The notes under the pieces were generated by a model. It was not told the origin of the DNA and made no database searches. It saw only the letters and a list, made by a program, of their open reading frames with translations. This document shows, piece after piece, positions 61,195 through 64,000 of a stretch of 64,000 nt of DNA. Position numbers and translations under genes: made by a program. Source of the DNA: Haloflavibacter putidus (GTDB lineage Bacteria > Bacteroidota > Bacteroidia > Flavobacteriales > Flavobacteriaceae); the NCBI RefSeq assembly GCF_006546625.1, contig NZ_VIAR01000002.1, forward strand, positions 1 through 64,000, given 5' to 3'. Positions within the stretch are counted from its first letter, which is position 1; each line of letters starts with the position of its first letter.

Positions 61195-62625
61195 ATGACG
61201 GCAGACCAATTTTACAAACTCTTATTACAAGATTTTCCGCACAAAGTAACCAGCCAACAAGATATTGCTTTACAAAAAATTGCCAATTTTGCTTTAAACC
61301 CTAAAAAAGATCAATTATTCTTACTCAAAGGATATGCCGGAACCGGTAAAACGACCATAATTGGTACGTTGGTAAAAAATTTATGGAAGGTTAAAATGAG
61401 TCCGGTTTTGGCTGCTCCCACTGGACGCGCTGCAAAAGTAATGACAAACTATTCTGGTTACCAAGCACATACTATACATAAAAAAATATATTACCCCAAA
61501 AAGGGTAGTGCTTCTAAGGTAGAATTTGTTTTGCAACGCAATAAGCATAAAGACACGATTTTTATTATAGATGAAGCTTCTATGATATCAGACCATTCTC
61601 AAAATTCTAAACTTTTTGAAAACGGTTCTTTATTAGACGATTTGATAGAGTATGTTTATTCCGGCAGAAATTGTAAACTTATGTTTATTGGTGACACCGC
61701 GCAATTACCACCTGTAAAGTTGGCTATAAGTCCGGCTTTAGAAGCCGATAAATTAAGCTTGAGCTTTCAAAAAGATGTAGACCAGATAGAACTTACCGAA
61801 GTAGTGCGGCAAAACCTAGAAAGTGGTATTTTAGAAAATGCCACGAAGTTGCGAGAAGTTTTGGCAGATGAATTTTATGAGAGTTTTAAATTCAATAAAA
61901 ATGTAGGAGGAGATTTTGAGCGTTTAGTAGACGGTTATGAAATTATGGATGCCATTAACGATGCTTACAGCAATTTAGGGCATGAAGAAACAGCTATTAT
62001 TGTTCAATCTAACAAACGAGCAAATATTTATAACCAACAAATACGTTCGCGCATTCTTTTCCGCGAAAGCGAAATAAGCGCCGGCGACTACCTTATGGTG
62101 GTAAAGAATAATTATTTTTGGATTAAACCGAATTCTGAAGCCGGATTTATTGCCAATGGCGATATTTTAGAAATACTAGAGATTTTTGCAATTAAAGAAT
62201 TATATGGTTTTAGGTTTGCCGAAGTAAACGTGCAAATGGTAGATTATCCCAAAATGAAAGCTTTTGAAACGGTGATTCTCTTAGACACTTTAGATATTAA
62301 CGCGCCCGCATTGCCTTACGAAGATAGCAACAAACTTTATCAAGAGGTTAATAAAGATTATGCCGACGAAACTTCTAAATACAAGCGATTTATGAAGGTA
62401 AAAAACAATCCGTTTTTTAATGCTTTGCAAGTTAAATTTAGTTACGCTATAACTTGTCATAAATCGCAAGGTGGCCAATGGAATACCGTTTTTGTAGAGC
62501 AACCTTATTTGCGCGATGGTATTACGCAAGAATATTTACGTTGGTTATACACGGCTTGCACGCGGGCACAAGAAAAGTTATATTTAATAGGTTTTAAAGA
62601 CGATTTTTTTGTCGAGAATTCTTAG
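61195..62625 (+). CDS. RecD2-like superfamily 1 DNA helicase
   Basis: A 476-residue AAA/UvrD-fold ATPase. It carries helicase motif I GYAGTGKTTIIGTLVK, motif II IIDEASMISD, GDTAQLPPVK and the C-terminal motif VI region TCHKSQGGQWNTVFVEQ with YTACTRAQEKLYLIG. This is the RecD/TraA-type helicase set, without nuclease motifs and without neighbours recB or recC. It probably acts in DNA repair or restart. Single gene with its own -7 box. Confidence 0.85.
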   Translation: MTADQFYKLLLQDFPHKVTSQQDIALQKIANFALNPKKDQLFLLKGYAGTGKTTIIGTLVKNLWKVKMSPVLAAPTGRAAKVMTNYSGYQAHTIHKKIYYPKKGSASKVEFVLQRNKHKDTIFIIDEASMISDHSQNSKLFENGSLLDDLIEYVYSGRNCKLMFIGDTAQLPPVKLAISPALEADKLSLSFQKDVDQIELTEVVRQNLESGILENATKLREVLADEFYESFKFNKNVGGDFERLVDGYEIMDAINDAYSNLGHEETAIIVQSNKRANIYNQQIRSRILFRESEISAGDYLMVVKNNYFWIKPNSEAGFIANGDILEILEIFAIKELYGFRFAEVNVQMVDYPKMKAFETVILLDTLDINAPALPYEDSNKLYQEVNKDYADETSKYKRFMKVKNNPFFNALQVKFSYAITCHKSQGGQWNTVFVEQPYLRDGITQEYLRWLYTACTRAQEKLYLIGFKDDFFVENS

Positions 62626-62701: not shown

Positions 62702-64000
62702 TTGAGTACTACAAATTTGAAGGTTATCGCTATGATACCCGCACGTTACGCTGCAACAAGATTTCCCGGTAAATTAATGCAAGAACTCAACGGGATGTCC
62801 GTAATTAGAAGAACCTATGAGGCTACTGTAGCTACTCAGCTTTTTGATGAAGTATTTGTAGTTACCGATAGTCCTATAATTTATGACGAAATTGTAAATA
62901 ACGGCGGCAAAGCAATAAGAAGTAAAGAACAGCACGAATGCGGTAGCGACAGAATTGCCGAAGCTGTTGCAGATATGGATGTAGATATTGTTGTAAATGT
63001 GCAAGGAGATGAACCCTTTACCAAAAAAGAAAGTCTAGAAAAGGTTTTGGAAGTTTTTAAACAAGAAGATGCAGAAAAAATAGATTTAGCTTCTTTAATG
63101 ACTCCCATAAGTATTCACGAAGAGATTACAGATCCCAATACGGTAAAAGTGGTGGTAGATCAAAATAATTTTGCGCTTTACTTTTCTAGATCGCCAATAC
63201 CTTACCCAAGAGACCAAGAAACCAAGCTTACTTATTATAAGCATAAAGGTATTTATGCATTTAGAAAAAGTGCTTTGTTAGATTTTTATCATCTGCCAAT
63301 GCGGGCGGTAGAAGCTGCAGAAAAGATAGAATGCTTACGTTATTTAGAATATGGTAAAACAATAAAAATGATAGAAAGTAATGCGCAAGGTATCGAGATT
63401 GATACACCGGAAGACTTGCAAGAAGCAAATGAAATTTGGACAGACGATTCTAAAAAAGCCACCTCAAAACCAGTAAAAAAAACCAAAGCAGATCCCGGTT
63501 TTAAAAACTTCCCAATGGTGCCAAAAGTTGTTTTTGGCAAAGGTAGTTTTGATCAATTACCGTTTATACTTAACGAGAAAAGAGCTATTGGAGCGCCATT
63601 TATATTTTTGGTAGATAGCGTATTTGAAAACGAAACCATATTTTTAAATCGTATACATACCAAAGGAAACGATAAAATTATCTTTATTTCTGCGGAAGAA
63701 GAGCCGTCTACAGCTCAAGTAGATGCCTTAGTAGAAAAAATTAAAAATGATTTTCAATTAATGCCAAGCGGTATTGTTGGCATTGGTGGCGGCACTATGT
63801 TAGATTTAGCAAAAGCAGTTGCTATTTTATTGAAAAACCCCGGGAAATCTTCAGAATATCAAGGTTGGGATTTGGTGAAAAGACCAGCATTATATCACGT
63901 TGGCATACCAACAATCTCCGGTACCGGCGCAGAAGTTTCTAGAACAACCGTTCTTACCGGGCCAGAGAAAAAATTAGGAATCAACTCAGATTTTACGCCT
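62702..64000 (+). CDS. KdsB fused to iron-type alcohol dehydrogenase (KdnB-like), 3' end outside window
   Basis: Partial gene, open to the window end, 433 residues seen. Residues 1-245 are a CMP-Kdo synthetase: [56 protein letters not shown] Lys-rich linker (about 249-262) leads to a second domain, from [11 protein letters not shown] on, with the NAD motif [15 protein letters not shown] and the metal-binding block [14 protein letters not shown] of iron-containing alcohol dehydrogenases. KdnB, a dehydrogenase of this family, oxidises C8 of Kdo in making 8-amino-Kdo. I followed the frame codon by codon and found no stop. The likely start is TTG 62702 or 62717; no upstream ATG fits. Confidence 0.85.

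Follow-up and report, generated by a model that had tools for sequence, protein, structure and literature searches.

Kdo8N (8-amino-3,8-dideoxy-D-manno-octulosonate) has been described as a hallmark of Shewanella LPS. According to the work on that genus, KdnB reportedly oxidises Kdo in step 1, KdnA transaminates in step 2 and KdsB activates in step 3. The corresponding kdnA, kdnB and kdsB of Shewanella are three separate, clustered genes, and a single cluster of this kind is usual rather than defining for the Kdo8N pathway. A 2014 review regards Kdo8N as confirmed in other species, with two of the three references cited there dealing with Shewanella (S. algae and S. pacifica) (PMC4052302). A C8 signal at high field, 44.8 ppm, has served to identify Kdo8N (PMC6357163). 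Pathway enzymes have been named outside Shewanella in at least two papers, on Pseudoalteromonas distincta (PMC9966250) and Leptospira interrogans (PMC8510873). A paper on the Capnocytophaga core mentions Kdo, and a core structure has been published for Arenibacter certesii. The literature searched, which was accessible in part and has most subscription journals outside it, yielded neither Kdo8N nor enzyme data for a bacteroidote, and no description of a KdsB-KdnB fusion, of the Kdo8N pathway in Bacteroidota or of KdsB residue 232. Measured against that literature, these last three items are new here, whereas pathway enzymes outside Shewanella have already been named.

The locus considered here lies at the end of the window, by which we mean the whole stretch of 64 kb that was analysed, and its features are collected in Table 1. 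The original prediction had described one unbroken frame in which a complete CMP-Kdo synthetase is joined through a Lys-rich linker to an iron-type alcohol dehydrogenase. The frame is indeed continuous: it starts with TTG, is still open at the window edge after 433 residues, and reaches its stop at contig position 64576 (G000:C22, 327 kb), giving 624 amino acids. Reading beyond position 64000, as had been proposed, completes the dehydrogenase with both of its Pfam halves, and the sequence motifs quoted in the original prediction are present in the translated frame. All Pfam matches on the fusion are above cut-off, namely a full CTP_transf_3 domain at residues 9-221 (168 bits), Fe-ADH at 275-440 (90 bits) and ADH_Fe_C at 454-554 (48 bits). 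An AlphaFold model built on an alignment of 32 fusions shows two folded domains with a mean pLDDT of 78.6, and residues 249-272 between them fall below 50. The Lys-rich linker holds for the copy in the window and not as a general trait, because linker sequence and length differ among fusions and the richness in Lys is not kept outside the window species.

Table 1. Features of the kdsB::kdnB locus and their positions in the window.
Feature	Position	Strand	Basis or remark
kdsB::kdnB fusion gene	62702..64000	+	first 433 of 624 codons; extends to 64576 in the contig
KdsB domain, residues 7-248, predicted CMP-Kdo/CMP-Kdo8N synthetase	62720..63445	+	NF003952, TIGR00466, 1gq9, 1h6j
Inter-domain linker, residues 249-265	63446..63496	+	Lys-rich in the window species, predicted disordered
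KdnB domain, residues 266 onward, predicted Kdo 8-oxidase	63497..64000, to 64573 in the contig	+	5k8c, 3rf7
Asp103 codon (QGDEP), predicted Mg-A ligand	63008..63010	+	motif equivalence to Aquifex KdsB D95; invariant in 32 fusions
Glu232 codon, candidate for a specificity residue; Asp234 follows two residues later	63395..63397	+	Kdn+/Kdn- column comparison
Asp234 codon (IDTPEDL), predicted Mg-A ligand	63401..63403	+	motif equivalence to Aquifex KdsB D219
GIGGGT dinucleotide-binding motif, residues 360-365	63779..63796	+	GGG invariant in 101/101 distinct KdnB
Helicase-like ATPase gene, neighbour	61195..62625	+	adjoins kdsB in 16/16 Mesonia genomes; context, outside the pathway

The N-terminal half can be assigned to KdsB. 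It scores 263 bits with NF003952 (cut-off 193) and 167 bits with TIGR00466 (cut-off 155.2), and it matches the solved structure 1gq9 at 173 bits and 1h6j at a predicted-fold TMt of 0.87. The Mg-A ligands of Aquifex KdsB are D95 and D219 (PMC3149649), and Asp103 and Asp234 of the fusion are their probable equivalents by motif, so both metal-ligand positions appear to be occupied. The fused copy is the single KdsB match above cut-off in the window genome, which also has one such match each for WaaA and KdsA. Scans of named records, plasmids and viral contigs gave no Shewanella KdsB sequence, the plasmids giving zero matches. Nine IMG/VR viral contigs (L268-L276) encode KdsB-like proteins of 30-41% identity.

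The C-terminal half lies nearest to characterised KdnB. Against solved structures, it scores 458 bits with 3rf7 from Shewanella denitrificans and 450 bits with 5k8c, the KdnB of S. oneidensis, compared to 85 bits for the next chain, which is a margin of more than 360 bits over the next family. The predicted fold of the domain superposes on 3rf7 and 5k8c with a TM of 0.94 (target length) at 54-55% identity over the whole domain, while the other alcohol dehydrogenases listed reach 0.67-0.78 at 17-23%. At nine positions, D458, H462, H526, H540, G362, G363, G364, D368 and K371, all 101 of the distinct KdnB sequences carry the same residue, copies with coverage below 85% or an internal stop having been left out. 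From knowledge of the group III alcohol dehydrogenase family, we take the first four to be metal ligands and the GGG motif to be dinucleotide-binding. The KdnB-like identity proposed at the outset is thus upheld by the search of solved structures and the fold comparison, which group the half with KdnB by a wide margin, and its assignment as a generic alcohol dehydrogenase was rejected on the bit scores of that search.

The aminotransferase that had been expected next to the dehydrogenase exists in the genome but at another place. The window genome has 11 DegT-family matches; for the six strong ones, the NCBIfam models shown do not include one for KdnA. The KdnA orthologue (L007, G000:C50:189045-190241) matches 5k8b at 480 bits over residues 1-393, the next chain giving 180, and its K186, presumably the PLP lysine, is kept in all of 26 distinct sequences. 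Since kdnA is on contig C50 and the fusion on C22, the two are not neighbours and kdnA, kdnB and kdsB do not form one cluster; counted to the contig ends, at least about 70 kb separate them. The kdnA gene lies between a nitroreductase-like gene and ribBA, and beyond these flanks follow what we take to be LptF/G-, LolA- and FtsK-like genes, all of these neighbours being named from their sequences. Elsewhere in this genome (G000:C33:240227-242044), the WaaA gene and a further gene for a DegT-family aminotransferase, L004, stand back to back; the best NCBIfam matches of L004 are below cut-off.

Across 60 genomes including that of the window, KdnA (E <= 1e-60) and KdnB (at least 48% identity, weaker alcohol dehydrogenases being uncounted) occur together in the same 24 genomes (Kdn+) and are both absent from the other 36 (Kdn-), with a Fisher p of 3e-17, a statistic that ignores shared ancestry. 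The co-occurrence is partly due to shared ancestry, as the Kdn state changes only four to six times on the KdsB trees. Within Mesonia, 4 of 16 genomes have both genes, and in all four kdnA adjoins ribBA and kdsB is fused to kdnB. None of the 12 Kdn- genomes has kdnA beside ribBA, the nitroreductase-like gene being directly there in 11 of them (G004 has neither), and no kdnB is present at the kdsB locus in any of the 12 within the stretch examined. The surroundings of kdsB are shared, as the helicase-like gene flanks it in 16 of 16 genomes, the 12 Kdn- ones included, and the four Kdn+ genomes have a photolyase gene 3' of the fusion, which in 6 of the 12 others comes directly after kdsB. Two separate loci, ribBA/kdnA and kdsB/kdnB, therefore fill and empty together within one genus. 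Among 296 genomes drawn from across the phylum, KdnA was detected in 20 and the complete gene set in 19, while G188 has KdnA but no real KdnB. Non-fused loci that bring kdnA, kdsB and kdnB together number at least eight (G038, G037, G052, G045, G252, G087, L131 and L134).

The in-frame fusion itself is found in 5 of the 60 genomes, again counting that of the window. Named records contain 552 confirmed relatives, and the analysis covered the best 80: 68 carry the fusion without a stop, 3 have side-by-side genes separated by stops and 9 have a HAD-type gene in between. Further relatives exist, so that the fused count is at least 68. Because the fusion recurs in so many genomes and loci, it is neither a chance event nor an assembly artefact. 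A separating stop, which would have undone the original prediction, is likewise missing from a sister genome (G005, 99% identical) with its TTG start at the same position; the evidence from other copies consists of this genome and the named loci. By record title, the fused genera include Mesonia, Aequorivita, Ulvibacter, Altibacter, Gilvibacter, Aureitalea, Aquimarina and many other Flavobacteriaceae.

All fusions apparently descend from a single origin. The KdnB tree has 67 rows, among them 37 fused ones chosen from those available, and requires two state changes, one origin and one return (L129), and the fork uniting all fusions with L129 has a modest, unstarred support of 80. The KdsB tree, with 73 rows, has a starred clade (98) that unites every one of the 26 fused rows used with L129, the Kdn- genome G022 and 8 of the 12 Kdn- Mesonia sequences; the remaining four lie outside it. 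This placement suits loss of the kdnB half, but given the open branching inside the starred clade these lineages may also never have been fused. At L129 (4001-5848), which the KdnB tree places among the fusions, kdsB and kdnB lie next to each other as two genes parted by two stop codons, and this locus could be either a split fusion or an unfused survivor.

Several candidate fusions did not stand. G044 and G057 (family f9) had been considered as independent fusions and were left out of the count, because a TAA separates the adjacent genes despite a full-length search row. The open-frame lengths of 854 and 871 for G016 and G026 had raised the idea of triple fusions; G016 has three separate genes in the order kdsB-HAD-kdnB, and G026 likewise has a HAD gene between kdsB and kdnB. 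This interposed HAD-type phosphatase gene, which we take to be YjjG-like, occurs in 9 of the best 80 of 552 named loci and in all 20 HAD rows of the trees, for example at L031 2627-3328 (-). It is missing between the domains in the fused loci, and the window genome gives only a weak match (E 7e-5).

When the columns of Kdn+ and Kdn- KdsB are compared, residue 232 ranks first. Glu occupies it in 23 of 24 Kdn+ sequences (Pro in G042) and in 1 of 36 Kdn- sequences (G036), while the other 35 have Gly, Ser, Ala or Pro. These 36 sequences represent 35 genomes, as G019 contributed two and G051 none. In Mesonia alone, Glu232 is present in 4 of 4 Kdn+ and Gly232 in 12 of 12 Kdn- genomes, a separation that several other columns achieve equally well. 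On a tree of 84 KdsB sequences, which is non-random because seven added Kdn- sequences were chosen for genomes holding the DNA pattern, Glu changes twice, and three well-supported independent pairs give on average 0.9 in the same direction, 0.0 in the opposite direction and 2.1 without a difference. Searched as DNA, the Glu motif occurs in 27 of the 296 genomes (backwards control, 1), comprising 14 matches in the KdsB of KdnA+ genomes and 13 in KdnA- genomes. Among the latter, one is in KdsB (G217), six fall elsewhere than in the detected KdsB gene and another six are in genomes without KdsB at E <= 1e-15. Conversely, the motif in its exact form is missing from 6 of the 20 KdnA+ genomes. Position 232 is Glu within a variant motif in G252, Cys in G149, G203 and G246, and Ser in G305; the sixth genome is G188. 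Glu232 could accordingly be seen as a lead for KdsB specificity, weakened by the few independent changes, and it might contact the 8-amino group of Kdo8N.

Two genomes, G036 (L042) and G217 (L255), have a KdsB with Glu232 and no KdnA match. G036 keeps kdsB beside a HAD gene, as if kdnB had recently been lost. A divergent KdnA/KdnB group is seen in G149, G203, G246 and G305 (43-47% and 46-48% identity). With G042 added, such a pair is present in five other Bacteroidota genomes (43-48% identity; L043, L067, L231-L234, L249-L254). Three of these genomes have the two genes next to each other, G246 has 0.9 kb between them, and G042 carries them on different contigs. Accompanied by a KdsB with Pro, Cys or Ser at 232, the divergent pair possibly serves the same pathway by another KdsB solution, or else makes another 8-amino sugar.

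Collectively, these data favour the reading, to which we give a probability of about 0.85, that the fusion gene encodes a bifunctional Kdo8N enzyme, which together with KdnA makes CMP-Kdo8N that is attached by WaaA. The C-terminal KdnB domain would oxidise C8 of Kdo to an 8-oxo sugar, KdnA encoded on C50 would transaminate this to Kdo8N, the N-terminal KdsB domain would activate it to CMP-Kdo8N, and the single WaaA would transfer Kdo8N to the lipid A precursor. This scheme, in its reactions as in their order, is proposed for this organism by analogy with Shewanella, and Kdo8N would then be present in its LPS. The original prediction had also suggested that the fusion would tie the two steps together. 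These steps are not successive, as in the published order KdnB acts in step 1 and KdsB in step 3 with KdnA between them, and a simple hand-over between the fused halves therefore cannot be the point. It is more plausible that the fusion provides balanced dosage, or that it gathers KdnA round one scaffold, where the three activities would be co-localised. Since only one KdsB was found and this one is coupled to KdnB, Kdo8N is likely to be the default core sugar.

The identity of the dehydrogenase half, the destination of the sugar and the integrity of the chain each allow a different reading. The half could belong to the generic group III alcohol dehydrogenases, or could have drifted to another substrate, with its fusion to KdsB being incidental; Pfam names only a generic Fe-ADH, and none of the dehydrogenase matches in NCBIfam reaches its cut-off. 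We regard this as hardly credible in view of the gap between the two KdnB structures and the best other chain, the identity of 54-55% kept across the whole domain, and the presence of KdnA along with KdnB in 24 of 24 genomes. Kdo8N might instead be made and sent to another glycan, such as a capsule or O-antigen, with the lipid A-proximal sugar staying Kdo. That destination seems improbable, as one KdsB and one WaaA were found and the KdsB carries the Kdn+-type residue; a cell in need of CMP-Kdo as well as CMP-Kdo8N would depend on one enzyme to make the two.

A reading that deserves somewhat more weight, but is still unlikely, is that the chain is cleaved or has one inactive half, so that the fusion would amount to co-expression. 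The predicted disorder of the linker and its variable sequence and length would suit cleavage, and separate chains seem to work in L129, with its two stops within the fused clade. On the other hand, the active-site positions of both halves are kept in 32 fusions, those of KdnB in 101 sequences, and the fusion extends across many genera from one apparent origin.

An extension of the bifunctional reading, which we hold tentatively and with somewhat less than even confidence, is a coupled switch formed by the three enzymes. Here, a KdsB with Glu232 would read the 8-ammonium of Kdo8N, the only KdsB would thereby be committed to the amino sugar, and the fusion would place the modification in an essential gene, changing the first sugar of the LPS core throughout the clade. 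Lineages leaving this state would drop kdnA, shed the kdnB half and carry Gly232; Gly232 without kdnA and kdnB is the state of the 12 Kdn- Mesonia genomes. The split inside this one genus offers a natural experiment, and residue 232 provides a one-residue hypothesis for how KdsB discriminates Kdo8N from Kdo. As the complete gene set occurs in 24 of 60 relatives and 19 of 296 genomes across the phylum, Kdo8N, if made, would be a widespread feature of the outer membranes of marine Bacteroidota, where the surface charge would be altered by a free amino group near lipid A.

Compared to canonical KdsB enzymes (E. coli 3k8d, KpsU 1h6j/1gqc, Aquifex 2y6p), the N-terminal half has the same complete catalytic domain with both Asp equivalents and a similar predicted fold, with TMt values of 0.82 for 3k8d, 0.87-0.88 for 1h6j/1gqc and 0.86-0.87 for 2y6p. 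The structure 3k8d shows the E. coli enzyme with CTP and 2-deoxy-Kdo. The canonical enzymes differ in not being fused to KdnB, and the four distinct ones that were aligned (KpsU and the Yersinia, Coxiella and E. coli enzymes) have Gly at the 232 position, where Glu is found here. Other Flavobacteriales groups, arranged kdsB-HAD-kdnB or kdnA-kdsB-kdnB, share the domains and the order of kdsB before kdnB, but keep them as separate genes, one group with the HAD-type phosphatase gene in between. Among the best 80 of 552 named loci, 64 of the 68 fused ones and 8 of the 9 HAD-type ones are followed by an acyltransferase gene, whereas in the Mesonia fusions a photolyase gene follows in its place. The closest described system remains that of Shewanella oneidensis (KdnB 5k8c, KdnA 5k8b, and KdsB), to which the KdnB and KdnA described here are orthologous by sequence, KdnB also by predicted fold, and with which they share the same presumed reactions; what sets the present system apart is that KdsB and KdnB form one protein, that kdnA lies on another contig, and that the host is a bacteroidote.
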